Shown: positions 2,785-54,529 of the stretch, piece after piece
Layout of the letters: each line of letters begins with the position of its first letter
Position numbering within the stretch: the first letter of the stretch is position 1
Source: Verrucomicrobiota bacterium
GTDB lineage: Bacteria > Verrucomicrobiota > Verrucomicrobiia > Limisphaerales > PALSA-1396
Reading direction: 5' to 3'
Assembly (NCBI GenBank): GCA_016200005.1
Contig: JACQFP010000047.1
Location: 62,001 to 126,000 of the forward strand
DNA length: 64,000 nucleotides
The notes under the pieces: model-generated
What the model saw: only the letters and a program-made list of their open reading frames with translations
Databases searched by the model: none
What the model was told of the DNA's origin: nothing
Translations under genes and position numbers: made by a program

Positions 2785-2819
2785 CTCCCTCTCCCAGCGG
2801 GAGGGCCGGGGTGAGGGAG
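2785..2819 (-). repeat. REP-like hairpin element, copy 2 (inverted)
   Basis: This is the reverse complement of the element at 2667-2702 with few changes. It contains CTCTCCCAGCGGGAG and the GGGGTGAGGGAG arm. Two copies facing each other about 80 bases apart resemble a BIME arrangement. Confidence 0.75.
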
Positions 2820-2933
2820 AGCCTGCGAAACACTTGCCACCTTCGGCGTCACTGAAAATGTCAAGGGAGCAGAGATGTCTTGTCCCCCAGCCGAACGCCG
2901 CGTAATGATTTCAACGGCCGACAGGTGAATTCC

Positions 2934-5900
2934 ATGATCTGGCTTCGAACTTTGGTTTCGCGCGGCGCTCTCGGAGCGATGACGACCGGTTGGCTTTGCC
3001 TGACTCCGTGCGGAGCGGCGCTGGCCGCCGGGGCTGCAAATCTGTTGGTGCCGCTGCCCGCCGGAGAAACCGCCCTCACCGACATCGGGCTTTACCAGGT
3101 CTGGTGGCAGTCTTACGGCGGCGAGCCGGTGCGGATGCCGGTGTCGTGGACGGGGCATGCCGATGAGCGCACCGGCATTTCCTACAAGCCATGGGGCCGC
3201 GTCTTTGGCCGCGAGGCGTTGCTGATCCACTCGCCGTGGCGCGTTCCGCCGGGCCGCACGTGGGCGGAATATCAACTCGCGTTGCCGCGCCTCACGCCCA
3301 TCAAGCTCTCGTTCGGCATTGTCATGGGGCCGGACGCCGGCGTGCAGGAGAAAAGCGACGGTGTGGCTTTCTCCTGCTACCTGACCGCCGACGGCGTGGA
3401 GCGCGAGTTGATGCGCGAACATCAGGCCACGGACAAATGGAAGCAATTCGACTTCGATCTTTCGCCGCACGCGGGCAAGACGGTCAAGCTTCGCCTGCAA
3501 GTCGAGCCGGGGCCGAAAAACAATCCGTCCTGGGACTGGTCCTTTTTCGGCGACGCGAAGCTCAGCGTCGGCACGGGACAGGATTCGCGGGACGAATTGC
3601 TGAAGCGCTTCACCGCTACCCGCGCCTACACCGCCACGTCAAAGGCGAGCCTGCTGGCGTTGAGCAACTCGGCCAACAATGGCGTCGTCCCGTCGAACCT
3701 GCTGCCGTTCTCAAACAAACTCGAACGCACCGCCGACGGCTGGCGCTTCAGTTACGTGGGCGCGGACGGTCCGGTGACGTTCACCTTCACTCCAGCCACC
3801 GGCACGCTGGACGATTTCACAGCGCAACTCGGCAAGGGACGTCCGTTCCTGCCCGCAACCGGCGGCGGGGCAACTATTGCACAAAAACGAGAGAACAAGA
3901 CGGAGGAGATTCCGGCCCGCGGTGGCCGGGCGGCAGAAGTTCGTCGTGAGGGCGACACGCTGAACGTGGTTTGGGAATACGATTTGCCGGGTCAGCCGCT
4001 GCGCGTCGCGTGGAGTTACCGGATGCAAGGCAAGGCGCTGGTGGTTTCGGCGCGCTGCGACAAGCCGGTGATTAGCCGCTTCAGTCTCGGCAACGCAGCC
4101 GCACCACTGCGCCGAACTCTGACCGTGCCCTATCTGCCGGGCGTGGTGAACTACTTGGCGGTGGAGGGAACCTTCGTCTGCCGTTACTTGGATTGGACGC
4201 AATCCCACGCCTCAGAATGTCCACAAGGCGAAGTCACCTACCAGCTCACGACGGCCAGCAATCGCAACGCGCTCGTCGAAACCGGCTACATTGCCATCTC
4301 GCCGGACGTGGGCGAAGTGCTGCCGAATATTCCGCATCCGCCGTCGCCATTTCTCGGCGTGCTCGGCCCGCGCATAATGCTCGACATCTGGGGTCACAGC
4401 GAAGGTACTTTTGCCGGTGACGCGCGGAAGTTGCGTGAACTGAAAGATCATGGCGTGGATCACCTCGCCATCATCCAGCACGCCTGGCAGCACTACGGAT
4501 ACGACGTGAAGTTGCCGGATCATATTCCCGCCAACCCGGCGCTCGGCGGCGATGAGGCGATGAAACTTTTCGGGCAGGCCGCCAATGAGTGCGGCTACCT
4601 CTGGGCGCTGCACGAAAATTATCTCGATCTCTACCCAGACGCCCCAAGCTATGACGCCACGGCGCGGGTGTTGCAGGCCGATGGTTCGCCGTCGCTCGGC
4701 TGGCTCAACGAGGCCACGAAAGTCCAGGCCTTCGGGATCAAGGCCGGGCGCATGATCGGATTCGCAAAGCAAAACTCGCCCGAAGCCCACGCCCGCTACG
4801 GCACCACCGCCGCCTATCTCGACGTGCATTCCTGCGTCCCGCCGTGGCATCAGCTCGATCACGATGCCACGCAACCGCAGGCGGCGATGATGTCGTTGCG
4901 CGTGCAACGCGAGCCGGAATTGTTTCAGTTCGAGCGCGACACACACGGCGGCCCGCTGTTTGGCGAAGGCGCAAATCATTTTTATTGGGCGGGCCGCTGC
5001 GACGGCGTTGAGGCGCAGGTGATCGGCGGCGACGACCACACGCCGTTCCTCGATCTGGATCTGCTGAAACTCCATCCGCAGATGGTGAATCACGGCATGG
5101 GTTATTACGAACGCTGGTATCGTCGCGGCTACGGGATCGCGTGGGGCGTGGATGCCGGCAGCCCGCGCAGCCTCGACCAATATCGCGCGCAGGAACTCGC
5201 CTACGGCCACGCGGGCTTCATTGGCAACCCGCTCCCCGACCGCGTCCAATACGTCTGGCGGGAACACAATCTCATGCACCCGGTCCAACGCCTCTACGGC
5301 ACCGCGCGCCCGGTCGAGATTCGCTACCAAGTGCAGGAGCGCTACGTGACCGGCAGCGCCGCGCTCGTGGCCGGCGATACTTCGCGCCAGCGCATTCGCT
5401 ACGCCAGCGGTCTGACGCTGTGGGTCAATTGGCGGAAAGAGCCGTGGCGGGTGGAAGCGAAATCCCCGCGACACTTTGTTCTTCCCCAGTGGGGCTTTCT
5501 CGCCCTTGGCCGGGGCACCGAAGTCGCCACCGCGTTGCATGATGGCTTGCTCGGGGATTACGCCGAGTGTCCTGAATTCATTTTCGCCGACGCCCGCACG
5601 CACTTCGACCCAGTGGATGCCGGCCAGCGGAAGATGATTGAGCCGCGCCTCCGCGAGTTTCGACATCTCGATAGCAACCGTGCTCAAGTCACCTACGAAT
5701 GGATCGTCAAAGATTCGCTCGACGACGATTTTATCTGCTATGTCCACGCTGTGAACGAGCGCGCACCGGCGGCACAACACATCGTTTTCCAGCAGGATCA
5801 CGCCCTGCCCCGCCCGACGAGCCAGTGGCGCAAAGGCGACGTGATCGTGGATGGGCCGTATGAGTTCACCGTCAGTGACAAGTTTGATGACTACGATCTC

Positions 5901-40460: not shown

Positions 40461-43232
40461 CTAAACGCCAAGACCCGCGATGGCAGCGCGGAGCTTTCGT
40501 TCTACAACTTTCTGCCGTTCGGCCCCATGAATTTTTTGCCCGTCGCTCTCGGCCACGTAAAACGTGTCAATCGCCGCGCCTTTTTCGGTGCAGATCTTGG
40601 CGACGGAAATGTCCAGGTCGAGTTCCGTCACCGTTTGCGAGATGACAAAAAGCAGTCCAAGGCGGTCTTCGGTTTCGATTTCGATCACGGTGCTGCTTTC
40701 GGAAGCGTCGTTGTCGATGTGGATCCGCGTGGGGATGTGTTCCCCTTCCAGCGATTCGTAGAGCGGCCGGCTGATGCGATGTCGCTCGATGAGCGCGTGA
40801 AAATCAACTTCGCCGCCGGTCAGCACTTTCAAGAGCAGGCTTTCAAAGTTTGTCCGTTCCGGTTCTTCGGCCAGCAAACCCGTCCGCGCATTGGTGACGT
40901 AAAAAGTATCCAGCACGATGCCGTCGTCGCGCGTGAAAATCTGGGCGCTGAGGATGTTCAGGCCGCAGGCGCTGAACGAGCCGGCGATGTTGCTGAACAG
41001 GCCCGCGCGGTCCCAAGTGCAGAGTTTCACCGCGCTGTACCCGCGGTCCGGCTCGTTGTGCCAGTTGACGACCGGCTCGAGCGCGCTCTCCTCCTCGCCA
41101 ATTTGCAGACGCATGAAGCGATGCGCCAGCAGGAGGTCGTCCACGATTTCCTTGACGGTATGAATTTGAAAGTAGCGCGGCGGCAGATTGGCGAAGTGCG
41201 CCTGCAATTCCTCATCGCTCAAATGCGGTGGCAACCACTGGCGCACTTCTTCGGCCAGCCGCTCGCGCTGTTTTTCCTCGGCGCGCAGAAACTCGGTGCC
41301 GCCCAGCAGCAGCGGCATCGTTTTCAAGTGCAGCGTCCACAGCAGCGAATCCTTGAAGCCATTCCAGAGCTTGTCGCTCGTGGCCAGGGAATCAACGAAG
41401 GTATGGAGCGTGAGCAACGTCAGCGTTTCGGGGGTTTGCACCTGCTTGGCGAATTGGCGAATCACTGTCCGGTCTTCCAGGTCGCGTCGCTGGGAGATCA
41501 TGGTCATCAACAAATGGTGTTCAATGACCCGTCGCAAAGTTTCCGTGGTGGCCGTGTCCAGGCCGAGCCGTTTGGCCACGCGAACCGCGAGTTTGCCGCC
41601 GACTTCGGAGTGTTTGCCGTGGCCGTCGGCCTTGCCGGTGTCGTGCAGCAGCAGCGCCAGATAGAGCACGAACGGGCGTTCCAGGCTTTGGAACATCGGC
41701 GCGTAGTTCTTGTAGGGTGGATCTTTCGCTTCCCAGATTCGGTCGAGTTTTTCCAGGCAAACCAGCGTGTGCTCGTCGGCGGTGTATTGGTGGTAGAACT
41801 CGTGCTGGACCAGGCAGGTCAATTTGCCGAACTCAGGAATGTATTTTCCGAGCAACCCGACATCGTGCATGGCGCGCAGAACGGGCGCCACGTTGCCACG
41901 CTGATTGAGGATGGCGAGGAAGGTTTCGCGCACATGTTCGTCGGTCAAAAACGTTTTATCGACCAGCGAAAGCTGATTGCGGATGAGCTGCGCCATGTCG
42001 GGATGCAACCTGATGTTGCGTTGTTGCGCGTGAAGAAAAACCCGCATGAGCCGGCGGGGTTGGTCGCGAAAAATGCGCAGCGAACCCGGATGGATGTAAC
42101 CGTCGAGGAACTTGAACCCATCCACCACCGGCTGGCTCGCGGGGCGTCCGGGGATAAACCCGCGCAGAAACTGGAGGCGCTTGGGCGGCGGCAACAACGC
42201 CAGGCGCTGCTCCAGGGTGCGGTTGATGAGGTAAATGTTCCGGGCGTGCGTGTAAACGTCCCGCATGAATTTCTCCAGCCGTTTGCTGGGCGCGCGGTCC
42301 GTGTATCCGAGGTTGTGGGCAATGGCGGGTTGCAAATTCTTGGTGAGCACATCAGCCGGACGTTCGACGTGATAATGAAGTTCAGTGCGGACGCGCAGCA
42401 AAAAATCGTAGGCCGCTTCGAGCTGTTTCCGTTCGCCGTCGCTGATGAGTTCCCGTTGCTGCAATTCCTTCAATGAGCGGGTGCGGTATTTGAAATACGC
42501 CATCCAAAGCAGGTTTTGATGATCGCGCAGCCCACCGCAGCCGTTCTTGATGTTCGGCTCCTGCATGCAGGCGGAGTTGCCGAACTTGGCGTGGCGACCG
42601 GCCTGGTCATCCAACCGCTCGGTGATGTATTTGTCTTCCTGGCCCTCCACGCATTTCGCGAACACCGTTTTCTGAAATTTGTTGAAGAGGGCTTCGTCGC
42701 CGGTGATGAGCCGTGCTTCGATGAGCGAGGTCTTGGATTGCATGTCGCTGTTGGCGACCTTGACGCAATCCTCAATGCTCCGGACGGAATGACCGACCTT
42801 CAGGCCGATGTCCCACAACGGATAGAGAATGCCATCGATTATTTTTGCGAGGTGAGGCAGTGGTTTGCTGCCCGCGACGACCTGGCCATCCTGGAGAAAC
42901 ATGAAATCGATGTCGCTCTGCGGATTCAATTCCGCGCGGCCATAACCGCCAATGGCCACGATTGCCAGCGGCGGAAACTCCTTCTGCGCCTGCGCCGAGA
43001 GGCTGCTCTTGGCGGCGTTCCACAAATAACGGATCAGCACGTCGATGATCTCCGCGCGCGCTCGACAGATGTCACGCCCTTTGGTGCCGGCGCGATGCAG
43101 CATCTTCAGGCGGTGGGTTTCCACCTTGAGAAAAGTCTTGTAGCGCGCCAGTTCCTGCGCCGGTTGACGACCGGCGGGCAATGGCAGCCGCACCGCTGCA
43201 TCCGATTCAATTTTGGCGAGTAACGTTTGCAT
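40461..43232 (-). CDS. glnD: PII uridylyltransferase/uridylyl-removing enzyme
   Basis: 923 residues, the full family length. The nucleotidyltransferase motif is AIGGYGRAELNPQSDIDFMF (GG..GR.EL, D.D) near residue 115. The HD domain for deuridylylation includes YLALLLHDTGKADGHGKHSE. Two C-terminal ACT domains follow (YSAVKLCTWDRAGLFSNIAG and IETEDRLGLLFVISQTVTEL), which sense glutamine. It controls PII and thereby nitrogen assimilation. No glnB or amtB is in the window. An unusual 21-bp repeat array lies directly upstream. Confidence 0.95.
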   Translation of the reverse strand: MQTLLAKIESDAAVRLPLPAGRQPAQELARYKTFLKVETHRLKMLHRAGTKGRDICRARAEIIDVLIRYLWNAAKSSLSAQAQKEFPPLAIVAIGGYGRAELNPQSDIDFMFLQDGQVVAGSKPLPHLAKIIDGILYPLWDIGLKVGHSVRSIEDCVKVANSDMQSKTSLIEARLITGDEALFNKFQKTVFAKCVEGQEDKYITERLDDQAGRHAKFGNSACMQEPNIKNGCGGLRDHQNLLWMAYFKYRTRSLKELQQRELISDGERKQLEAAYDFLLRVRTELHYHVERPADVLTKNLQPAIAHNLGYTDRAPSKRLEKFMRDVYTHARNIYLINRTLEQRLALLPPPKRLQFLRGFIPGRPASQPVVDGFKFLDGYIHPGSLRIFRDQPRRLMRVFLHAQQRNIRLHPDMAQLIRNQLSLVDKTFLTDEHVRETFLAILNQRGNVAPVLRAMHDVGLLGKYIPEFGKLTCLVQHEFYHQYTADEHTLVCLEKLDRIWEAKDPPYKNYAPMFQSLERPFVLYLALLLHDTGKADGHGKHSEVGGKLAVRVAKRLGLDTATTETLRRVIEHHLLMTMISQRRDLEDRTVIRQFAKQVQTPETLTLLTLHTFVDSLATSDKLWNGFKDSLLWTLHLKTMPLLLGGTEFLRAEEKQRERLAEEVRQWLPPHLSDEELQAHFANLPPRYFQIHTVKEIVDDLLLAHRFMRLQIGEEESALEPVVNWHNEPDRGYSAVKLCTWDRAGLFSNIAGSFSACGLNILSAQIFTRDDGIVLDTFYVTNARTGLLAEEPERTNFESLLLKVLTGGEVDFHALIERHRISRPLYESLEGEHIPTRIHIDNDASESSTVIEIETEDRLGLLFVISQTVTELDLDISVAKICTEKGAAIDTFYVAESDGQKIHGAERQKVVERKLRAAIAGLGV

Positions 43233-43348
43233 CCGAATCTAAGTTTGTGGGGAAGTTTCTTTGAACGCAAGCGTCAGGCAATTTCGGCGAGAAGATACTG
43301 CCTTGTTGCTTTGCTTCGCGGCGCCTTTAACACCTCCAGAAGGCCGTT

Positions 43349-43596
43349 CTTCTAAGCTTGGAACTTCGGCTTCAAATGCGGGAGGCGCGCTTCCAAGCGT
43401 GGAAGACCGGTTTCCAAGTCGGGAGGAAGGTTTTCCCGGCTTGGAAGCCGGGTTTCTGAGGCCAGAGGAAGGGCTTCGCACCGTAGAAGTCGCACTTCAA
43501 ACGTTGGAAGAAGCTCTCCCGGCGTGGAAATTGAGTTTCTACGCTTGGAAGAACAGTTTCTAAGCGTAGAAAGTGGGGCTTCCGGCAGAGAAATTA
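43349..43596 (+). repeat. Tandem array of about twelve 21-bp palindromic units
   Basis: Starting at 43349, units of 21 bases (one of 20) follow without gaps. The approximate consensus is YTTCYAAGCGTGGAAGANNGG. Each unit has a TTCYA/TRGAA half-palindrome around four bases; the best copies are TTCCAAGCGTGGAA and TTCTAAGCGTAGAA. Copies differ at many positions, so the array is old. It lies between the stop of the small gene at 43655-44026 and the glnD start. It is not a CRISPR, as there are no unrelated spacers. The frame encoding heptads over it (43261-43563) is a by-product of the 21-base period. Confidence 0.85.
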
Positions 43597-43654
43597 TGTA
43601 TTATGCTCAAAATGAGCTATTTACGAATTTCGACTGTCGCTTTTTCACCCCGGA

Positions 43655-44026
43655 TTACGGGGGAGTTGGGCCGGGAGGTGTTGGACCACCGCCTTGCCGA
43701 ATCCGGCTGCGGATGGTCTGGAGATTCTTCGCCTCAATGCTGCTTTTTCCGAGCATTCCCATCATGGCATCAATCACGCCACTGGTATCGGTGTAGCCGT
43801 CGGTGGACGCAGCGTCCAATGCCTTTGTCTTATTTCCCAAATTCACTTTGAGTTGCTCTTGTTCCGTATTGAGCTGGCTCATCGAGGCGAGCTTGGTCTG
43901 CAAGCGAGTCAGGTGCGGGCCGACATCAAAGTTCTTTGCCGCCAACGCAGCAGTGTTATTGGCGTCCTGCATGTAGGCGACGACCGCTTGCATGATGCCC
44001 GTGGTTTCAGTGAAGGTGTGTGCCAT
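43655..44026 (-). CDS. Small helical protein with Pro-rich tail, unrecognised
   Basis: 123 residues from ATG 44026, preceded by AAAGGATG at suitable spacing. It begins MAHTFTETTGIMQAVVAYM, is mostly helical with a coiled-coil-like centre (LASMSQLNTEQEQLKVNLG), and ends GGGPTPPGPTPP. I do not know the family. No signal peptide or membrane helix is seen. The last codons lie just beyond the 21-bp array. Confidence 0.65.
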   Translation of the reverse strand: MAHTFTETTGIMQAVVAYMQDANNTAALAAKNFDVGPHLTRLQTKLASMSQLNTEQEQLKVNLGNKTKALDAASTDGYTDTSGVIDAMMGMLGKSSIEAKNLQTIRSRIRQGGGPTPPGPTPP

Positions 44027-44238
44027 GATTCATCCTTTGGTTGATCGTTTGTCTTTTTGTTTTGAACCCGCCACCCAGGAACGCCAGTGGCGAACTCTGC
44101 TTTTATTTTCGCAAATTGCAGTCGCAATCTGAAAAATCCAATGTCCTCGCATCAATTTATCTCATCAGCGCAGTTCGTTTTCTAAATAGGGCGTTTTCCC
44201 ATCACCCGATGCGGCCGTTAGCCTGCAGGAAAGTGCGC
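44027..44238. other. Intergenic, promoter side of the small helical protein gene
   Basis: About 210 relatively AT-rich bases between two minus-strand genes. No gene or convincing promoter is seen. Confidence 0.4.
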
Positions 44239-44478
44239 TCAAATATCAGCCACAAGGTCACGCAATCGTACCTTCAAAGCTCTGGCGATTCTCAAGAGCA
44301 CGTCCACTGTGGGCACTTTATAACCTCGCTCAATCTGACCGACATAAACGGGATTGAGATCAACTCGTTCGGCCAACTTTTCTTGAGTCAAACCTTCCAG
44401 TTTGCGGTGCTTGCGAATCCCCTCACCCAGGAGCTTTCGGTCTTTTTGCGTAACCACGATTTCGGAAAAGCGAAGCAA
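44239..44478 (-). CDS. XRE-family helix-turn-helix regulator
   Basis: 79 residues from TTG 44478; GTG 44457 is an equally possible start and would remove seven residues. The HTH_3 domain is complete: LGEGIRKHRKLEGLTQEKLA, ERVDLNPVYVGQIERGYKVP and TVDVLLRIARALKVRLRDL. It resembles single-domain regulators of mobile or toxin-antitoxin loci, but no partner is seen. It may regulate the small gene downstream or bind the palindromes beyond it, which is a guess. Confidence 0.85.
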   Translation of the reverse strand: MLRFSEIVVTQKDRKLLGEGIRKHRKLEGLTQEKLAERVDLNPVYVGQIERGYKVPTVDVLLRIARALKVRLRDLVADI

Positions 44479-44690
44479 GGCGGGCCGGGAGTGAACAGAT
44501 TCTAATAGGTATCATTTTTCTCTTGCATTGTTCTGGCATAGGATGAATATGCCTGCGTTGCGATGACCTCCATCGCTTTTCTCGCCGAGGTTCCCACAGG
44601 TAAACTTTTGCTCGGATTCATCTTCAAAGTGGCGCTTCACAGCGCTTCTGGTTTGCAACGGCTGGACTCGCCACGAATGAAAACAAACTT

Positions 44691-47600
44691 ATGAAAACTT
44701 CCCCTCCCTTCGCTACACTGTTGCTTCTGCTGTCACTTTTGCGGTTGGCTGCCCAACCAGTGCCATCGAGTGACGCGGCTTTTGACCAACCAGCGAGCTT
44801 CACTATTGCTGCACGCGAAGCGAACTCGCAACTGCTCCAGCGGGTCACGTGGTCAACCAACGATGATCACGAAGTCAGCGCCACGACCAATGTCGTGACC
44901 CAGATTGAAACCGGTTTAAATTATCAGGACCCCAATTCCGGCGAGTGGCTGCCCTCAGAGGAGACCGTGGAACTGCTGCCGGGCGGCACCGGCGCGGTGG
45001 CGCGCAAGGCGCAACACACGGTTTTTTTCCCGCCCAGCCTTTACAATGGAGTGATTACTTTGACCACGCCCGAAGGAACGATCCTGCGCAGCCGCCCGAC
45101 GATGCTGAGTTTTTTTGACGGTCAAAAGAGCGTTCTTATTGGTGAACTGAAGGACTCCATGGGTTATCTCTTGCCGTCGAAGAATCAGATAATCTTTCCG
45201 GACACGTTTACCGATGGCATCCATGCCGACGTGATCCTGACGTTTACGAAGTCTGGATTTGAAGCTGATCTGGTGTTTCGCAAGCCCTTGCCGGTGACCC
45301 CCGAACAGTTCGGCCTTCGACCTGAGTCCTGCAGAATCCAGTTGCTCACGGAGTTCTTTGACACCGTCGCGCCGGAAAAGGAATCGGAAAGCATCAGTCC
45401 CAACGATAGATTGTCCGATTCCGTGTTGCGGTTTGGAACCATGCGGATGATTGCGGGCAAAGGTTTTTTGGTCGGTAATCCAGCGGCGGAACAACCAGCG
45501 CTCCCAGTTTTTAAGAACTGGCAAGTCTTGGAGAACCGCTCGTTTTTGGTCGAGGAGGTGCCCTGGCAGAAAATTGAACCGCAGTTGAAGTTGCTGGCGG
45601 TCGCCGCAAGTCCGCGAGTCAAGAATTTCGCTTCGACCGACGCCAACACGCGCCGTGCCTCTACGCGCCGTCTGCTTCCGCCGTCACGGTTATCTCAACC
45701 CACGACCAACACCATTCAATTGGCCAAAGTCGATGTCAGCAAACAGCCAGGTTTTATTTTGGATTATACCATCGTCAGCAGCGCCACGAATCAAGTTTTC
45801 CAAGGCGATACGACGTATTACGTCAGCGGGGCCGTCACGTTGAGTGGCACGACGAAAATTGAAGGAGGCGCCGTGGTGAAATTCACGAACACGTCAGTGG
45901 CTAAAATCACCATTAACGGCGCGATCCAATGCCAGACCAGTGCCTACCGGCCCGCAATCTTCACCGCCAAGGATGATAATACGGTTGGCGAAACCATCAC
46001 GGGCAGCACCGGCAGCCCGACCAATTACTATGGTAATGGATTGTATATCACCAGCAGTTCCAACTCGTTAAGTAATGTGCGCCTGGCGTATGCTTCCTAC
46101 GCCCTTTATTTTTACCACCGCTGCAGTGGCTGGCTCAACTTGACCAATGTCCAATTCGTCAAATGTCGGTATCCGCTCTATGCCGAAGGGACCGACGTCT
46201 TCTGTATGGATTACGAGAGCAACGTAAATCTCAATAATGTGCTTGGTTATGCGTGTGACACTTTTATTTCAGGCCAGTATATCTACCTCAAAAGCCGGAA
46301 TGTAACGGTCCACGGATGCAACACGCTCGGTTCGGTCCAGGCGGGCGACGGCAGCTATGGATACTGGACCAATGGCCTGCTGGTAGGCGTGACCAATTGG
46401 GGTAACATGTACTACGGCACTAACAACACGGCGTACTTTGCAACGGACCCCGGTAACATTTTCCAAACCGTCGGCGCGGGCAGTCACTATCTGGCCGACA
46501 ACAGCCCGTATCGCAACGCCGGGACGACCAACATCACGGCCAGTCTGCTGGCTGAGTTGAAGAAAAAGACCACTTATCCGCCGATTCTGCTGACGAACAC
46601 GGTTTCAGTGGATACCACGCTCGTTCCTCAAGCACAGCGGGACACGGACACGCCAGATTTGGGTTTTCATTTCGACCCCATTGATTTCATCACTTGGGTA
46701 TACACCGTCACCAACGCCACGTTGACTATAAGCAACGGGGCTGCCATCGCCTGTTACAATGACAATGGTATCTGGCTGCAGGACGGCAGCGCGATCATCT
46801 CGGTGGGAACGCCGCTTCTCCCCAATTGGTTTGTGCGCTATCAGTTGGTGCAAGAACAGCCCGTGGCGCTGGGTGCTTACACCCCATCTTCCGCCGTGAC
46901 CGTAAACCCGTACCATACGGGAGCCGTTCATCAAGCCGCTTCGTTCAGGTTCTCCAATTTTTCAGCGCCCGCCAATGGCGGCACGCAGTTATACGACGGT
47001 GCTCCGAACTGGCTCTATAGCAACTTGTTTGTCCAGGATTGTCAGATTTGGGGTGGCGCCAACACTTTCAGCGGTGGCAATTCAACCACCGTAATTGTTA
47101 ACAACAATCTGTTTTATCGTTCATCGTTCAGTGCCTCGGGTTCCTTTACCAATTCGAGTTTGAGCCTCTCCAATAACCTCTTCGTCGGATTGCCGTCGAA
47201 AATAATCCTGGTTCAGCCCGCCGGTTGCGTCTGGAATGCGTTTAACAACGTCTTCGATACATGCTGGATTGGACCTGCCGCTACCTGCACCAACGGCTAC
47301 AACGCCTACATCAATTCCACGAACCGGATCAGTCCGACGAATGTAAACGACATCGTATTGACCAACGCTCTGGGTTACCAATCGGGGCCTTTGGGCGATT
47401 TTTATCAACCAACCAATTCATCGCTCATCAACGCCGGCAGCGTGACCAACGCCGGCTGGGTGGGCCTCTACCATTACACTGTCACGACCAATCAAGTGAA
47501 GGAGGCCAGTTCCACCGTCGATATTGGTTTTCATTATGTGGCAGTGACGAACGGCGTGCCCATCGACACCGATAGCGACGGTATGCCCGATTATCTGGAA

Positions 47601-47714
47601 GACGCCAACGGCAACGGCACCGTCAATTCCGGCGAAACCGACTGGCAAAGCGCCACAGATTTAGGTCTCAAGGTCCTTATTACCCGGCCACGGAATGGCA
47701 GCACCATCCCTTAA
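44691..47714 (+). CDS. Secreted parallel beta-helix protein preceding the RHS gene
   Basis: 1007 residues with a signal peptide (PPFATLLLLLSLLRLAAQ). The first 330 residues form a domain often found beside RHS proteins in this group (TQIETGLNYQDPNSGEWLPS, IIFPDTFTDGIHADVILTF). From about residue 360 the sequence is Asn/Thr-rich with short repeats (YYVSGAVTLSGTTKIEGGAV, SLSNVRLAYASYALYF), typical of a right-handed beta-helix. Near the end, DTDSDGMPDYLEDANGNG is a thrombospondin-3-like calcium motif. It lies about 95 bases before the RHS gene on the same strand, so the two are probably coexpressed and exported together. Confidence 0.8.
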   Translation: MKTSPPFATLLLLLSLLRLAAQPVPSSDAAFDQPASFTIAAREANSQLLQRVTWSTNDDHEVSATTNVVTQIETGLNYQDPNSGEWLPSEETVELLPGGTGAVARKAQHTVFFPPSLYNGVITLTTPEGTILRSRPTMLSFFDGQKSVLIGELKDSMGYLLPSKNQIIFPDTFTDGIHADVILTFTKSGFEADLVFRKPLPVTPEQFGLRPESCRIQLLTEFFDTVAPEKESESISPNDRLSDSVLRFGTMRMIAGKGFLVGNPAAEQPALPVFKNWQVLENRSFLVEEVPWQKIEPQLKLLAVAASPRVKNFASTDANTRRASTRRLLPPSRLSQPTTNTIQLAKVDVSKQPGFILDYTIVSSATNQVFQGDTTYYVSGAVTLSGTTKIEGGAVVKFTNTSVAKITINGAIQCQTSAYRPAIFTAKDDNTVGETITGSTGSPTNYYGNGLYITSSSNSLSNVRLAYASYALYFYHRCSGWLNLTNVQFVKCRYPLYAEGTDVFCMDYESNVNLNNVLGYACDTFISGQYIYLKSRNVTVHGCNTLGSVQAGDGSYGYWTNGLLVGVTNWGNMYYGTNNTAYFATDPGNIFQTVGAGSHYLADNSPYRNAGTTNITASLLAELKKKTTYPPILLTNTVSVDTTLVPQAQRDTDTPDLGFHFDPIDFITWVYTVTNATLTISNGAAIACYNDNGIWLQDGSAIISVGTPLLPNWFVRYQLVQEQPVALGAYTPSSAVTVNPYHTGAVHQAASFRFSNFSAPANGGTQLYDGAPNWLYSNLFVQDCQIWGGANTFSGGNSTTVIVNNNLFYRSSFSASGSFTNSSLSLSNNLFVGLPSKIILVQPAGCVWNAFNNVFDTCWIGPAATCTNGYNAYINSTNRISPTNVNDIVLTNALGYQSGPLGDFYQPTNSSLINAGSVTNAGWVGLYHYTVTTNQVKEASSTVDIGFHYVAVTNGVPIDTDSDGMPDYLEDANGNGTVNSGETDWQSATDLGLKVLITRPRNGSTIP

Positions 47715-47809
47715 ACTAAACTTTACCACTCATGAAAACCATGATCGCTCTCTTACTGTTCTTAACAAACAAATGTGGCACCCGTCGCGCTTTTCCTGAT
47801 TCCTGCTTA

Positions 47810-50800
47810 ATGAAACGGCTCTTAACAATTTTTTGCGGCCTTCTCTTCGCCGCGAATATCCTGGCGACGGACGTCTACGTTACCATCAGTTTCCAAGGAA
47901 ACGGCTGTCGTTACCACTGGGAGGTTTACCAGACCTGGCAACACCTTAATGGCTATTGTAACGGTGGCCAGACAAACCATTTATTTTGGTCAGGTTATGA
48001 TTATGGAACAACCACAAATGGTCATTCAACGACCGCCCTTATTTTTTCATCACCAGCAGGCTGCAAAATCTATCCCGTTGATGACGTGTTCAAGGCTTCC
48101 TACACTGCATCCTTTTACCAATGGGACGGCTCTCAGTATGTGCTAACGCAGCAGTCCGCTGAAATGGGCGACAACGGGGGCGGGAGCTACGCCGTGAATT
48201 TCGATGCGTGTTCCACGAATGCACCAACGCCTCCGGCTCCTGGCCCACCGCCACCTTGCGAAAACTGCGAAACCTGTTCGGGAATGCCGCGCTGGGGTGT
48301 TACTGAGCCTTATATTACCTTCTGGCTGAAGGACGAGCCGCTGGGTTACCAACCAGCCAGTGGACCGCGAGTTGCGCTCGACCTTGGGTACAAACAACAC
48401 GAGGATGTTACCGGGCAAAATCCATCCAAGTTCAGTGTCGGGCGAAAGTGGAATTTCCCCTGGTTTTCGTTTGTCATTCAAGACGTCTATGGCAATAACG
48501 TGGTTCATTTTCCAAACGGCCGGCAGATAACCTTCCAAGGCACGAATGATTACCTTACCAACACGCGGCTCACGGGCGATACAACCAATGGTTTTAGCCT
48601 CGCCTATCAGGACGGCAGCAAAGACGTATATGGATTCGTAGTCACAAACGGCGGTGGCGGTTTTGTCCGGGCATTCCTGTCCGAGCGATGGAACGCCCAG
48701 TCACAAAAAACCAAATTAAACTATTACAGTTACACGCCGGGCGGCGATCCGGTCATCCGCCTTCAGAACGTTGTGGATGGCGATGGCCGGACCAATTCGA
48801 TTTATTACGTTTCCACCAACAGCTACAGCACCAACCTGATCAGCCAGGTCGTGGACGCCTTTGGCCGCACCAACTCTTATGCATACGACACCAACGGATT
48901 TTTGACGAACATCACCGATGTCGTCGGAATTTCCTCTTCTTTCTCTTACGATGCCAATGGCTGGGTCACGAACCTGACCACGCCCTATGGCACAACGAGT
49001 TTTCAGATCACCGATGCCACTGATGCCGCTCCGATTGGCCGGTCCGTCCTGGTGACTGAGCCCAATGGCGCCAAACAACTCTACCTCTACACCAATTCCG
49101 CCGCGCTGCCGGTTTCCTACGCGACCAATGACGTGCCCGTCACCTCCCCGTTTACAAACACATTCGATAACGCCGATTTGAATCTGCGCAACAGCTTTCA
49201 CTGGGACGCCAGGCAGTACGCGGCTTTGTCCACCACGAACATCTCGGGCTTCACCAGCAACGATTTCTTCAAAGCGCGGATGCAACATTGGTTGAAGGCC
49301 ACCACGAATTCAATGGGGCCAACGCTCTCGCTGACGCGAGAGCCAAGCCCTGATAGTGCCGGCACGACTGAAGGGCAGAAAACCTGGTACGACCATGCAG
49401 GCAAGACCAACAGTGCCTACCAAGGTACACAAATCCTTCCATTGTTTGTCGCGCGTGTATTGCCGGATGGAACTACTTCCTTTGCGCGTACCGAGCGCAA
49501 TGACTGGGGCGCTGTCACGAGTCAAGTGGACACCTACACCAAACCGGACGGAACGGTCGGCCAGCGCACGAACACGTTCACTTATGCGAGTAACAATATC
49601 GATGTACTCACGCATATCAGCGCGGACGGCACCCAGGTTTCCAGCAATTATTTCAACGCCAATCACCAGGTGTTGACGAACCTCAACGCGCTCAACGAAA
49701 TGACGATCTATACTTACGACAGCAGCAACCGCGTCACCAGCATCAAACGCCCCAGCGGCCTGACGACGACGAACCTCTACAACAGCGACGGAACTTTGGC
49801 CAAAACCATCGATCTGGAAATCAACCGGACCAACTCGTTCACATACGCGAACGGCCTCGTCTATTCGCAGACCGATGAGCGCGGCCTGACGATCACCAAC
49901 ACCTGGGACAATTTGCAACGGCTGATCAAAGTCACTTATCCCGACGGCACGTTCATAACGAACATCTATAACAATCTCGATCTCGTTCGGGTAGTTGATC
50001 GCATGGGTTTCACCAATTCTTTTGGCTACGATTCCATGCGGCGCAAAACTGCGGAGACCAACGCCCTGGGCAATTACACACTTTACAGTTATTGCACCTG
50101 CGGCTCGCTGGATTCGGTGCGGGATGCTGCGGGCAATTACACGTACTTCTACTACGATAATATCGGGCGGCAATCGGCAACGGTTTATCCTGACGGTTAC
50201 GCCGTGACCAATCGTTACAATTTGATCGGTCAGGTGACCAACGTGATCGACAGCGCCGGAGTCAGCGTCACCAACTGGTTTAACAATCAAGGTTTGCAAT
50301 TCAGCGTCAGCAACGCATTCGGCCAGACGACCAAACTCAGTCTTGATCTTGAGGATCGCGCAACCAACTCGATCGATGCCAACGGTGTCAGTATCGACAC
50401 GACCTATGATGCTTTGGGTCGCACATTGACCCGCACGTATCCAGACGGCGGCGTGGAGAAGTTTGGCTACACGACTAACGGGCTGGTTGCCTACACCAAC
50501 CAGTTGAATCAGGTAACACGGTATGTCTATGACGTTGCGGGGAGAAAAACTTATGAGACCAACGCCAACAGCGAAGTGACCCAATTTGCTTACAACGCCG
50601 CGGGTGATCGGCTGGCGCTGACGGATGGCAAGAGTCAGACCACCACTTGGACTTATGACATCTACGGACGCATGAGCAACAAGGTGGACGCCGCAAGCAA
50701 CATCCTGTTCGTTTATTCCTACGATCCGGGCAACCGTTTGACCAATCGTTGGAGCATTGCCAAAGGCAACACGGTTTACAAATACGACGCAGTCGGGAGC

Positions 50801-52912
50801 CTGACGAATATCGATTACAACGTAAGCCCGGACATCACGCTCCAATACGACGCCCTGAATCGGCTGACGAATATGGTGGACGCGGTGGGGACGAGCGTTT
50901 ATACGTATAACACCATCGGCCAGTTGTTGAGCGAGGACGGCCCCTGGGCCAATGACACCGTGAGCTACAGTTACGACAGCGGACGGCGGCGTAGCGGGTT
51001 GACAATACTTGCACCCAACGCTTCAGCGTGGACCCAGAGTTATGGTTACGACAGTGCTAATCGGATGACGAACATCACCTCACCAGCCGGAGCCTTTGGT
51101 TACACGCTCGGAGGGACGAGCTCTGCGAGTTCCCTAATTAAAAGACTTACGCTTCCCAATGGCGCTTACATCACCAACACCTTCGACAGCGTCGCCCGAC
51201 TCACCGGCACGTATTTAAAGAACAGCGGCAACAGCGTTCTCAACTCGCATGAGTACCTGAACAACTCGGGCAATCAAAGGACAAAGCAAACATTCACGGC
51301 GAGTAATTACGTGGATTATACATACGATGGTATCGGGCAGTTGAAAACTGCCTTTGGAAAAGAGTCCGGTGGCACCACGAATCGGTTGCAGGAACAGCTT
51401 GGCTACGCCTACGATGCGGCGCATAACCTGAACTGCCGCACGAACAACGCGCTGGTGCAAGCGTTCAACGTGAACAACCTAAACGAACTTACCACTGCCA
51501 CAAACAGCGGCACGCTTACGGTAGCCGGCACGACCACCAGTGCGGCTACGAATGTCACCGTGAACAGCCAGACGGCGACGCTCTATCTGGACAACACGTT
51601 TGCGAAGGCGGGATTTACGGTGACGAATGGCAACAACACCTACACCGCCATAGCGCAGGACACCTACAACCGCAAAGACACCAACAGTATCACAGTCAAT
51701 CTACCCGCGACAAATAGCTACACTTACGATCTCAACGGAAATCTTCTTTCCGATGGCAAACGCGGCCTCGAGTACGACGATGAGAATCAGTTGATGCGCG
51801 TCACAGTGACCAACGCTTTCAAGAAGGAATACCTCTACGACGGGAAGATGCGGCTGCGCGTTCGCAAGGAATTTACGTGGCAGGGCGGCGCCTGGGCGCA
51901 AACTAATGAGATCCATTTTGTTTGGGACCTCGATGTCGTCATTCAGGAGCGGGACGCTAACAATCTGCCCAGGCTGACCCTCACACGCGGACTGGATTTA
52001 AGTGGCAGTTTGCAGGGAGCGGGCGGCATCGGCGGGTTGCTGGCGATGACGGAGAATTCCGTTCTGAACCCGGAGCATAGTTACTATCACGCGGACGGGA
52101 ACGGAAACGTGACGATGCTGATAAACACGAATCAATTTCAGGTTGGGAAATATCTCTACGATCCTTTCGGCAATCCGTTGTCCGCGAGCGGAACAAAGAC
52201 CTTTGTGAATCCCATTTGGTTTTCGAGCCAAATCTACGATTGGGACACGGGCTTCTTGCATTACAAGTTCCGCATTTACATTCCTGAACTGCATCGCTGG
52301 CTAAATAGGGATCCAATTGCCGAGAATGGCGGTGTCAACTTGTACGCCTTTCTGTTGAACTCGCCAACGTCGTTTATCGATCTTTTCGGTTTTGGAACGT
52401 GGGAGATTTACAACGATGATCTTGATTTGAACCGGCCTGGAATTAACCCGCGTGCTAAAGAACCAGCCGGATTCTCCGTTGTTTATAAACCGGATGATGG
52501 TGAGTGCTCTGAGGGCAAGATCATACTTTACCAGATTGTAAGTCAAAAGAGCTTGTTCGGACAATCACCTACTGTTGACGCCCCAACCGATCCATATGGG
52601 CGCCATCCGAAAGGGGTTAAATGCCCGCTACCGCCGCAAATGACACCGGACAAACCAGGCGTTCCCAATTCATACCAAGATTCTCCTGAAGGTGGGGGGT
52701 ATGTTTTTGAATTTACTGCTGTGGCGATTTGTCGCGATAAATGCAAGGAGTTGAAGCTACTCAGTACCTTCTATTTTGAATTCGATTCCAAGACTCGGAA
52801 GATTATCAAACGAGATCCAAAGTATAAGAAGCATTTCAAGAAAGGCATGGAGCAGTGGTGGGAAGGTGATAAATCTATTAAGAATTACTATCCAAATGGG
52901 ATCTGTTGGTAG
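47810..52912 (+). CDS. Secreted RHS/YD-repeat protein with variable C-terminal tip
   Basis: 1700 residues from ATG 47810, which starts a signal peptide (RLLTIFCGLLFAANILA). An in-frame ATG at 47732 would give a less typical leader. The shaft consists of dozens of YD repeats (YDSSNRVTSIKRP, YDALGRTLTRTYPDGG, YDVAGRKTYETNANSEVTQF). The RHS core ends with HYKFRIYIPELHRWLNRDPI, ENGGVNLYAFLLNSPTSFID and LFG. The last roughly 170 residues after that are unrelated to the shaft and less GC-rich; they include GGGYVFEFTAVAICRDKCKE. In polymorphic toxins this position holds the toxin domain, but I recognise no toxin fold. The next gene touches its stop codon. Confidence 0.88.
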   Translation: MKRLLTIFCGLLFAANILATDVYVTISFQGNGCRYHWEVYQTWQHLNGYCNGGQTNHLFWSGYDYGTTTNGHSTTALIFSSPAGCKIYPVDDVFKASYTASFYQWDGSQYVLTQQSAEMGDNGGGSYAVNFDACSTNAPTPPAPGPPPPCENCETCSGMPRWGVTEPYITFWLKDEPLGYQPASGPRVALDLGYKQHEDVTGQNPSKFSVGRKWNFPWFSFVIQDVYGNNVVHFPNGRQITFQGTNDYLTNTRLTGDTTNGFSLAYQDGSKDVYGFVVTNGGGGFVRAFLSERWNAQSQKTKLNYYSYTPGGDPVIRLQNVVDGDGRTNSIYYVSTNSYSTNLISQVVDAFGRTNSYAYDTNGFLTNITDVVGISSSFSYDANGWVTNLTTPYGTTSFQITDATDAAPIGRSVLVTEPNGAKQLYLYTNSAALPVSYATNDVPVTSPFTNTFDNADLNLRNSFHWDARQYAALSTTNISGFTSNDFFKARMQHWLKATTNSMGPTLSLTREPSPDSAGTTEGQKTWYDHAGKTNSAYQGTQILPLFVARVLPDGTTSFARTERNDWGAVTSQVDTYTKPDGTVGQRTNTFTYASNNIDVLTHISADGTQVSSNYFNANHQVLTNLNALNEMTIYTYDSSNRVTSIKRPSGLTTTNLYNSDGTLAKTIDLEINRTNSFTYANGLVYSQTDERGLTITNTWDNLQRLIKVTYPDGTFITNIYNNLDLVRVVDRMGFTNSFGYDSMRRKTAETNALGNYTLYSYCTCGSLDSVRDAAGNYTYFYYDNIGRQSATVYPDGYAVTNRYNLIGQVTNVIDSAGVSVTNWFNNQGLQFSVSNAFGQTTKLSLDLEDRATNSIDANGVSIDTTYDALGRTLTRTYPDGGVEKFGYTTNGLVAYTNQLNQVTRYVYDVAGRKTYETNANSEVTQFAYNAAGDRLALTDGKSQTTTWTYDIYGRMSNKVDAASNILFVYSYDPGNRLTNRWSIAKGNTVYKYDAVGSLTNIDYNVSPDITLQYDALNRLTNMVDAVGTSVYTYNTIGQLLSEDGPWANDTVSYSYDSGRRRSGLTILAPNASAWTQSYGYDSANRMTNITSPAGAFGYTLGGTSSASSLIKRLTLPNGAYITNTFDSVARLTGTYLKNSGNSVLNSHEYLNNSGNQRTKQTFTASNYVDYTYDGIGQLKTAFGKESGGTTNRLQEQLGYAYDAAHNLNCRTNNALVQAFNVNNLNELTTATNSGTLTVAGTTTSAATNVTVNSQTATLYLDNTFAKAGFTVTNGNNTYTAIAQDTYNRKDTNSITVNLPATNSYTYDLNGNLLSDGKRGLEYDDENQLMRVTVTNAFKKEYLYDGKMRLRVRKEFTWQGGAWAQTNEIHFVWDLDVVIQERDANNLPRLTLTRGLDLSGSLQGAGGIGGLLAMTENSVLNPEHSYYHADGNGNVTMLINTNQFQVGKYLYDPFGNPLSASGTKTFVNPIWFSSQIYDWDTGFLHYKFRIYIPELHRWLNRDPIAENGGVNLYAFLLNSPTSFIDLFGFGTWEIYNDDLDLNRPGINPRAKEPAGFSVVYKPDDGECSEGKIILYQIVSQKSLFGQSPTVDAPTDPYGRHPKGVKCPLPPQMTPDKPGVPNSYQDSPEGGGYVFEFTAVAICRDKCKELKLLSTFYFEFDSKTRKIIKRDPKYKKHFKKGMEQWWEGDKSIKNYYPNGICW

Positions 52913-53344
52913 ATGTCACCTCTTATGTTGAATATGAATCGCTTTTCAAAAAATAGACTTTTTCTCGGTTCCATCGCAGGTGTGCTCGCCTGTATCTATG
53001 TATACTTTTATAATCAAATCGGTATTTTACGAACCGACAAAGAAACAGAGGTTTTGAATCAGATAACCGCATATTACTTAAGATTTCAGTGGTGCGCCCT
53101 AATCATCCCACTGGCTGGATTCTTTTTTCTTGCGAGATTTCAAACTCTCAGAAGGAGATTAAGACTATCTGTGTATCCAGAACTGCTGTTCATTTTTGCA
53201 GTCGGCTGGATCTTCATGTCCATAATCATTTGGGAGTTGCAACGGGCAAATGCCCCGATCAGGTTGCGTCGCTTACTTGATCAAGAAAAAGAAATGACTC
53301 ATCCCGAAAATATGGCTCCTGCTGAAAATAATCCTTCAAAGTGA
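52913..53344 (+). CDS. Small membrane protein abutting the RHS gene, candidate immunity protein
   Basis: 143 residues. Its ATG follows the RHS stop directly (TAG ATG), so translation is likely coupled. Three membrane helices are visible (FLGSIAGVLACIYVYFY, WCALIIPLAGFFFLARF, ELLFIFAVGWIFMSIIIW), followed by a charged tail. Base composition is AT-rich like the RHS tip and unlike the shaft. Such a gene directly after a variable RHS tip is usually the cognate immunity gene. That assignment is by position only. Confidence 0.6.
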   Translation: MSPLMLNMNRFSKNRLFLGSIAGVLACIYVYFYNQIGILRTDKETEVLNQITAYYLRFQWCALIIPLAGFFFLARFQTLRRRLRLSVYPELLFIFAVGWIFMSIIIWELQRANAPIRLRRLLDQEKEMTHPENMAPAENNPSK

Positions 53345-53367
53345 TCGGGAGGGATGAGTCAAACATC

Positions 53368-53472
53368 TACGCTACTAACGCCAATAGCGAACTCACGCAG
53401 TTCACTTACAACGCTGCCGGCGACCGACTTACGCTGACAGACGGCAAGAACCAGACCACCACCTGGACTTAT
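53368..53472 (+). pseudogene. Orphan RHS repeat fragment
   Basis: These 105 bases align without gaps to the RHS gene at 50552-50656. By my hand count 82 bases and 30 of 35 residues match (for example NAAGDRLTLTDGKNQTTTWT against NAAGDRLALTDGKSQTTTWT). Most differences are at third positions, so the fragment derives from a diverged, once-functional RHS gene rather than a recent duplication. The frame ends at TAG 53494. It probably marks an earlier tip left behind by recombination. Confidence 0.8.
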
Positions 53473-53917
53473 TTGAACTCGACACGCCAACCATAGCACC
53501 CTTGTTGCCAATAGATTTTGAACACTGGAACAGCTTCTCGGCTACGAACACTTCTCGGAATGAAGCAAAGCTCCCGTACATCAAACTGAACATCCAAACG
53601 CCATGCCCGCCTCGTGGCGCTGTCCCGGTCAACCAAGGGCGTTGTGGGAGGATTTTTCACTCGCAATGCCCGGATCGCCTTCGGTCATGGATGCGACTGT
53701 CCCAGCTATGTGGCCCCGGTTTATTCCGGAAGTCTGCCGCGAGGTCAACAACCTTCTCACCACTCGACAACGCAATTCGGTTACCATGTGTTCGGGCGGG
53801 AAGCTTTTTATGCCTGCCGTAAGCGTTCTCCAAGATTTATATTGAGTACGTCTTTTGCATCGTCAAACGCCACTGCAACCTTGTGACCGCTGCGGTTTTT
53901 GTTACTTTGCCATCGTA
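53473..53917. other. Region with an unexplained minus-strand frame
   Basis: About 445 bases between the orphan RHS fragment and the ECF sigma gene. On the minus strand, codons from about 53690 down to a stop at 53469 read SATRRAWRLDVQFDVREL and VFKIYWQQGCYGWRVEF without a clear start. The composition is protein-like and the stop abuts the RHS fragment. It may be the end of a lost gene or a structured repeat. On the plus strand nothing convincing is seen. Confidence 0.3.
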
Positions 53918-54529
53918 ATGTCCGTCAATGTTGATCCTGATGCTTCCCTGATGCTCCGCGTTAAGCGGGGTGACATGGACGCTTTCGCCGGGTTGGTGGA
54001 CAAGTACAAACAGCCGGTAACCAATCTCGTCGGTCGGATGTTGAACGACGTGACGGAAGCTGAAGACGTGGCGCAAAATGTTTTCCTCCAGGTTTACAAG
54101 TCTGCTCACCGCTATGAAGTCTCCGCCAAGTTTTCCACCTGGCTGTTCACCATCGCTCGAAATCTTTGCCTGAATGAAATTCGTCGTCGTTCGCGGCACC
54201 CGACGGATTCGCTGTATGCCACGCACGCCGATCAGGACGACCAGCCATTGCGCCAGTTCAAGGATGAAAAAACCTTTTCTCCGCCCGATGCCCTGTTGCA
54301 CGGCGAACTCGAACACAAGATCACCGAGGCGCTGGCCGAATTGCCGGAACACCAGCGCACCGCCATTTTGCTCTGTCGCGGGGATGAATTGAGCTACGAA
54401 GAAATCGCTGAGGTGCTGGGCTGCTCGTTGTCCGCGACCAAGTCGTTGATTCACCGTGGCCGGGAAACCTTGAAACAAAAACTCAAACCCTACCTGCGCA
54501 CCGGCGTCTGGCGGGAGACTCCAGAATGA
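53918..54529 (+). CDS. ECF RNA polymerase sigma factor
   Basis: 203 residues from ATG 53918; the frame opens earlier at 53855 but the added residues do not fit the family. Region 2 covers AFAGLVDKYKQPVTNLVGRM and AEDVAQNVFLQVYKSAHRYE with FSTWLFTIARNLCLNEIRRR. Region 4 includes LPEHQRTAILLCRGDELSYE and EIAEVLGCSLSATKSLIHRG. It is the first of three genes likely forming an operon with an anti-sigma-like membrane protein and a DUF3106 protein. Confidence 0.92.
   Translation: MSVNVDPDASLMLRVKRGDMDAFAGLVDKYKQPVTNLVGRMLNDVTEAEDVAQNVFLQVYKSAHRYEVSAKFSTWLFTIARNLCLNEIRRRSRHPTDSLYATHADQDDQPLRQFKDEKTFSPPDALLHGELEHKITEALAELPEHQRTAILLCRGDELSYEEIAEVLGCSLSATKSLIHRGRETLKQKLKPYLRTGVWRETPE

Follow-up and report, generated by a model that had tools for sequence, protein, structure and literature searches.

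A variable tip, an abutting membrane-protein gene and an orphan shaft fragment at an RHS locus of Verrucomicrobiota: a probable case of tip exchange

Anatomy of the RHS locus

The DNA considered here, referred to as the window, is a stretch of 64,000 nucleotides from contig JACQFP010000047.1 of a Verrucomicrobiota genome, and it contains a rearrangement hotspot (RHS) gene followed by a small membrane-protein gene and an orphan piece of RHS shaft. The RHS/YD-repeat gene (47732-52912, + strand) is an open reading frame (ORF) of 1726 amino acids. Residue 27 is an internal, signal-like start, and the stretch after this Met27 is, as judged by reading, hydrophobic and signal-like. Both the RHS repeats (PF05593, 143.5 bits, Pfam cut-off 22) and the RHS-associated core (TIGR03696, 66.1 bits, cut-off 32.5; 52157-52390, + strand, residues 1476-1553) score above their cut-offs, and no other delivery domain was matched in the protein by Pfam up to an E value of 1. 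The core passes into the tip at PTSFIDLFGF. Compared with PxxxxDPxGL, which section 11 of PMC3150448 gives as the boundary motif of Rhs-CT, the P, D and G are kept, and DP and L are lost.

The variable C-terminal tip (52394-52912, + strand) comprises 172 amino acids (residues 1555-1726), and its G+C content of 45.3%, against 52.9% for the RHS body, lies below that of all 70 overlapping 519-bp segments of the body (49.9-56.6%). The next gene (52913-53344, + strand, 143 amino acids, G+C 40.0%) begins with an ATG directly after the TAG of the RHS gene, leaving a gap of zero, and it encodes a protein with three hydrophobic regions, for which a three-helix model was obtained with low confidence (predicted local distance difference test, pLDDT, 57.5).

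Behind the membrane gene lies the orphan RHS shaft fragment (53368-53472, + strand), in which 82 of 105 bases equal the shaft stretch at 50552-50656 (+ strand; BLASTN E value 5e-20). It consists of this mid-shaft stretch only, with no core and no tip left, and it stops at the start of a dispersed repeat, here called R, at 53471/53472. The 23 differing bases include 18 at third codon positions and amount to 15 synonymous and 5 non-synonymous codon changes; when 23 changes were placed at random the mean was 3.3 synonymous changes, and 15 were never reached in 2000 trials. This synonymous excess therefore points to a different RHS gene, diverged under selection, as the most likely source of the fragment, rather than to a recent duplication of the window gene.

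An earlier note on this DNA had described an unrecognised, AT-richer tip after the RHS core, a three-helix membrane protein starting right after the stop codon, and a 105-bp fragment matching the shaft with mostly synonymous differences. All three descriptions are borne out, the tip having no match in Pfam, NCBIfam or PHROGs, with two corrections to the third, namely that the identity is 78% and that the fragment ends at R.

Exchange of tips among related RHS genes

Comparison with relatives gives good support to the exchange of tips within this RHS family. Five RHS genes of a congener (G001) share the body of the window gene, with identities of 66% for C314 (residues 166-1553), 63% for C213 (994-1592), 58% for C102, 56% for C456 and 50% for C193. 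Measured in steps of 60 residues, the identity of C314, C102 and C193 to the window protein is 41-57% over residues 1441-1560 and 4-36% from residue 1561, and the tips of these three differ from the window tip; the C213 tip likewise gave no significant match to it. Bodies that are 50-66% identical are thus unrelated past residue 1560, and the alternative tips that the earlier note had advised seeking in related strains do exist in the congener. The bodies themselves are also mosaic. The identity of C102 to the window protein is 26-53% over residues 241-660 and rises to 57-88% over residues 661-1500, whereas C314 remains at 50-92% over residues 241-1500, and this jump in C102, set against the even course of C314, therefore argues for recombination inside the shaft.

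The tip itself recurs, together with its partner, in a genome of another family (G016, contig JAAYVR010000105), where a tandem array (L057 1-11952) consists of a full-length RHS gene of 2005 residues and three further units downstream. Three different tips are seen in it, one on the full gene and one on each of the first two further units, and a gene lies behind each of these tips; the contig ends before the tip of the last unit is reached. The second further unit is an orphan cassette of the window type: its tip is a homolog of the window tip (46% identity, E 2.3e-27), and directly 3′ of it, with a 4-bp overlap, the membrane gene too has its homolog (28% identity, E 5.2e-6). Among the 58 relatives searched, with the window genome counted, both the tip and the membrane gene occur in two. 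In the window and in G016 a small gene lies behind the tip and travels with it. In the orphan unit, similarity to RHS begins with the shaft stretch YNAAGDLLTLTDGKGQTT, a stretch that the window fragment also contains. One tip of the array contains HQGQDWFAHH, which has no Pfam match and which we take to recall zinc phospholipases.

At other RHS loci, different tips stand beside different small genes, which encode lipoprotein-like or membrane proteins. The tip of one RHS gene in G045 (L044 6721-7425, − strand) resembles α/β hydrolases at scores below the cut-offs (PF00975, 22.3 bits; PF09994, Tle1-like, 20.9 bits), and a 99-residue membrane gene lies behind it. Read over a longer stretch, the C213 gene of the congener is no orphan: near residue 995 it is split by about 3.25 kb of other DNA (L079 5348-8600).

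Origin of the cassette and of the orphan fragment

We consider it likely that the locus is the 3′ end of an RHS locus of polymorphic-toxin type, in which a constant body bears an exchangeable cassette of tip and membrane gene, and that the fragment is the beginning of another RHS copy. Recombination within the conserved shaft or core would carry the tip and the membrane gene from one RHS body to another, and the low G+C of both is counted in favour of such exchange. In the order of events that we infer, this other copy would have belonged to the same subfamily, and its beginning would mark where an earlier or neighbouring tip cassette lay; the rest of the copy would have been lost up to a cut end that coincides with R. 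The tip and the membrane protein are most likely a putative toxin and its immunity protein: the tip, presumably released by cleavage, would act at the envelope, and the membrane protein would shield the producer from it. The reason for proposing the envelope is that further partners within this RHS family are, by reading, often lipoprotein-like or membrane proteins as well.

Three known systems invite comparison. In the C-terminal displacement of rhs genes in Enterobacteriaceae (Jackson et al. 2009, PMC2935791), a conserved core carries a GC-poor variable tip and is followed by downstream core/tip fragments, some of them tipless, and the model given is recombination in the core. The locus resembles it in the conserved core, the variable tip of low G+C and the downstream fragment without a tip; it differs in belonging to Verrucomicrobia, and in that the fragment comes from the middle of the shaft, not from the end of the core, and is cut at a dispersed repeat. 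The congener tips, the G016 array and the shared shaft start agree with this displacement model. Orphan rhs-CT/rhsI modules (Poole et al. 2011, PMC3150448) likewise consist of a tip plus an adjacent small gene, whereas here toxin and immunity are putative, the partner is a predicted membrane protein, and the DPxGL is altered. In polymorphic toxin systems (Zhang et al. 2012, PMC3482391), one recombination swaps the toxin tip and brings the immunity gene, and remnants stay on the 3′ side; in contrast to these, the window tip and its partner match no Pfam family scanned. The exchangeable tip, the small membrane gene and the RHS scrap are a new example of the known bacterial swapping of probable toxins. 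Two aspects are highlighted: first, the rhs C-terminal displacement model is extended to uncultured Verrucomicrobia by direct comparison of congeners; second, a tip-partner family without a Pfam match is added, whose tip is modelled as β-sandwich-like and not enzyme-like.

The fragment could also be RHS debris beside R, unrelated to the cassette and left there by deletion or by arrival with R, in which case it would be uninformative on tip exchange. On the one hand, its end at the left end of R, and the fact that mid-shaft is all that remains, without core or tip, fit such an origin. On the other hand, the fragment is on the same strand and directly behind the partner gene, the G016 orphan cassette behind a full RHS gene begins its RHS homology at the same stretch of shaft, and the synonymous excess indicates derivation from a functional RHS gene. 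We regard the debris explanation as unlikely, if still worth keeping in mind, and favour the fragment as the beginning of another RHS copy.

Nature of the tip and of its membrane partner

Relatives of the tip are few. Within the order, 4 of 320 genomes match, the window genome and G016 being counted, and the two others are G692 (Verrucomicrobia bacterium UBA6176, contig DITU01000122) and G529. No further true relative was found among 387 genomes drawn from the phylum (the window genome counted), where two other matches were attributed to chance. Matches in G215 (L009), G198 (L010) and Mucilaginibacter (L063) were rejected as chance, there being no RHS frame at these places, and the tip matched neither PDB sequences nor plasmids. 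Two cysteines of the tip are conserved in four relatives.

The gene after the G692 tip overlaps the tip gene by 4 bp if a GTG start is assumed, and it has a C-terminal WELQ stretch in common with the window partner. Comparison of the two partners as profiles with hhalign gave a weak match (probability 13.6%, E 0.002), and the controls, the G529 neighbour and an unrelated membrane gene of G045, were near zero (0.2-0.4%). The neighbour of the G529 tip agrees in position only. PADLOC gave no match for P0001, P0002, P0003 and the G692 partner, and Rfam gave none over 52300-54200 up to an E value of 1.

Several results weigh against the view of the locus as a toxin-immunity cassette exchanged in place. 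The searches noted above assign the tip to no toxin family. Its AlphaFold2 model (pLDDT 79.7; predicted template modelling score, pTM, 0.79) is a β-sandwich with C-terminal helices, for which the best structural matches are weak immunoglobulin/fibronectin type III-like (Ig/FnIII-like) or phage baseplate sandwiches (Z ≤6.2), and the model appears to lack any enzyme signature or enzyme-like fold; a fold search with the tip gave no match at E ≤0.001, a missing family in such a search not being probative. Of the 320 genomes of the order, 9 have a homolog of the partner, which adjoins this tip in three and is without RHS in the rest, within the stretch read, about 1.5 kb on each side; two places are clear (E 7.8e-10 and 3.5e-7) and the others weak (E 0.0009-0.009). 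The exact PxxxxDPxGL is absent from the boundary of the window RHS gene, and no trace of a former tip or partner was found. Finally, the RHS gene and its cassette lie in a segment that is inserted as a whole (see below), which makes displacement at this place no more than a possibility. The layout had been read in the earlier note as the trace of a new tip displacing an old one by recombination in the shaft. Of this, exchange within the family stands, by virtue of the congener tips, the G016 cassette and the mosaic shaft, whereas the displacement may have occurred elsewhere than at this spot. The occurrence of the membrane gene in unrelated contexts, which the same note had named as a sign against its proposal, is partly observed in the homologs without RHS nearby; these may be orphan immunity genes or members of a wider membrane family.

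Some of these results would suit a different role for the tip: as part of an exported RHS protein, it would serve as a domain for binding or structure and would not be toxic, and it would be co-inherited with a membrane gene whose product is its inner-membrane partner or anchor. The Ig/FnIII-like sandwich without an enzyme signature, the two conserved cysteines and the presence of the partner family away from RHS speak for this role. However, closely related bodies bear unrelated tips, most of them with a small gene of their own, which is the pattern of polymorphic toxins, and another tip in a similar context looks like a lipase. A binding or structural role is accordingly judged rather improbable, and a putative toxin with its immunity protein is preferred. 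An assembly artefact, with RHS repeats joining two loci in the contig, is very improbable: the assembly is a draft of 87 contigs and RHS genes are repetitive, but tip, partner and fragment lie inside a contig of 229,550 bp, and a second genome has the pair of tip and partner too.

The boundary motif varies across these genes. DPxGL is present at the boundaries of G529 and of C193 and C456 of G001, and variants are found at C213, C21, orphan 3 of G016 and G692. PxxxxDPxGL is common in Rhs-CT/RhsI, though perhaps not a strict mark of it. As the window boundary deviates from it, the locus is labelled as RHS polymorphic-toxin type, and canonical Rhs-CT membership is not claimed. Relatives of the partner at L083, L084, L085 and L089 stand alone or amid small membrane genes, with no RHS in the stretch read.

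The dispersed repeat behind RHS cassettes

The repeat R (53471-53780, + strand) has, in the alignment of its copies, a sharp left end, ATTTGAACTCGACACGCCAACCATAG, and is about 250-310 bp long. It occurs at 25 loci in 15 of the 58 genomes searched. The query, which was taken from the RHS locus and so favours similar copies, returned 31 match rows in 18 genomes, from which five rows matching the flank of the sigma-factor gene only were dropped and two rows of one place were merged; G010, G011 and G051, which match in that flank only, were left out of the comparison with RHS cores. The 15 genomes hold 62 RHS-core matches, and 8 of the 25 R loci are found downstream of a same-strand core at a distance of at most 1.5 kb, namely C47 (the window), C19 and C21 of the window genome, G045 C49, G034 C448, G015 C506, G023 C31 and G001 C213. 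With the window set aside the figure is 7 of 24, against about 0.01 expected for random places by a hand estimate from these counts, so that R copies lie behind RHS cassettes far more often than by chance. A search for the left-edge pattern found 14 places (one for the control pattern), six of them behind an RHS core, and in five cases (C213, C21, C19, G023 C31 and G045) the edge follows the partner stop codon at a distance of about 7 to 120 bp. The majority of copies are away from RHS, and R is thus a general repeat, though one strongly biased towards RHS cassettes.

These positions make the repeat a candidate for a second recombination arm. Within this order of Verrucomicrobia, R could specifically mark the 3′ end of RHS tip-immunity cassettes, as a common flank behind the immunity gene; with the conserved shaft or core as the other homology arm, it would allow whole cassettes to be swapped between unlinked loci, and such a joining would have left the fragment cut at the R edge. 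We hold this to be a doubtful proposal. R was also considered as a coding gene and rejected, for although a frame is open in several copies, the conservation is at the level of DNA and the edge is sharp. Copies just behind RHS partner genes were seen at the unlinked loci L042 (5855 on), L043 (2086 on), L044 (6292, − strand) and L054 (2595, − strand). An ORF upstream of the C19 RHS piece in the window genome (L042 about 2800-3800) resembles REP-associated tyrosine transposases.

The inserted segment

The RHS gene, its cassette and R lie between glnD (40461-43232, − strand) and a sigma-factor gene (about 53922-54529, + strand), in a segment that spans 43236-53873. Homology between the window and the congener G001 ends at 43235 in glnD and restarts at 53874 before the sigma-factor gene, and these two points are 49 nucleotides apart in G001. 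In all four other relatives compared (G051, G045, G010 and G011), glnD is likewise close to the sigma-factor gene, with no RHS match. By this comparison of flanks, the segment of about 10.6 kb with P0003, the RHS gene, the tip and the partner is an insertion relative to five relatives. Since the whole segment is inserted here, the displacement of the tip may predate its arrival at this place. No integrase or transposase was recognised by reading the ORFs of 43236-53873. P0003 (44691-47714, + strand), the upstream partner of the RHS gene, is an ORF of 1007 amino acids with an N-terminal signal-like stretch, and its homologs accompany three RHS genes of the congener (C102, C156 and C314).

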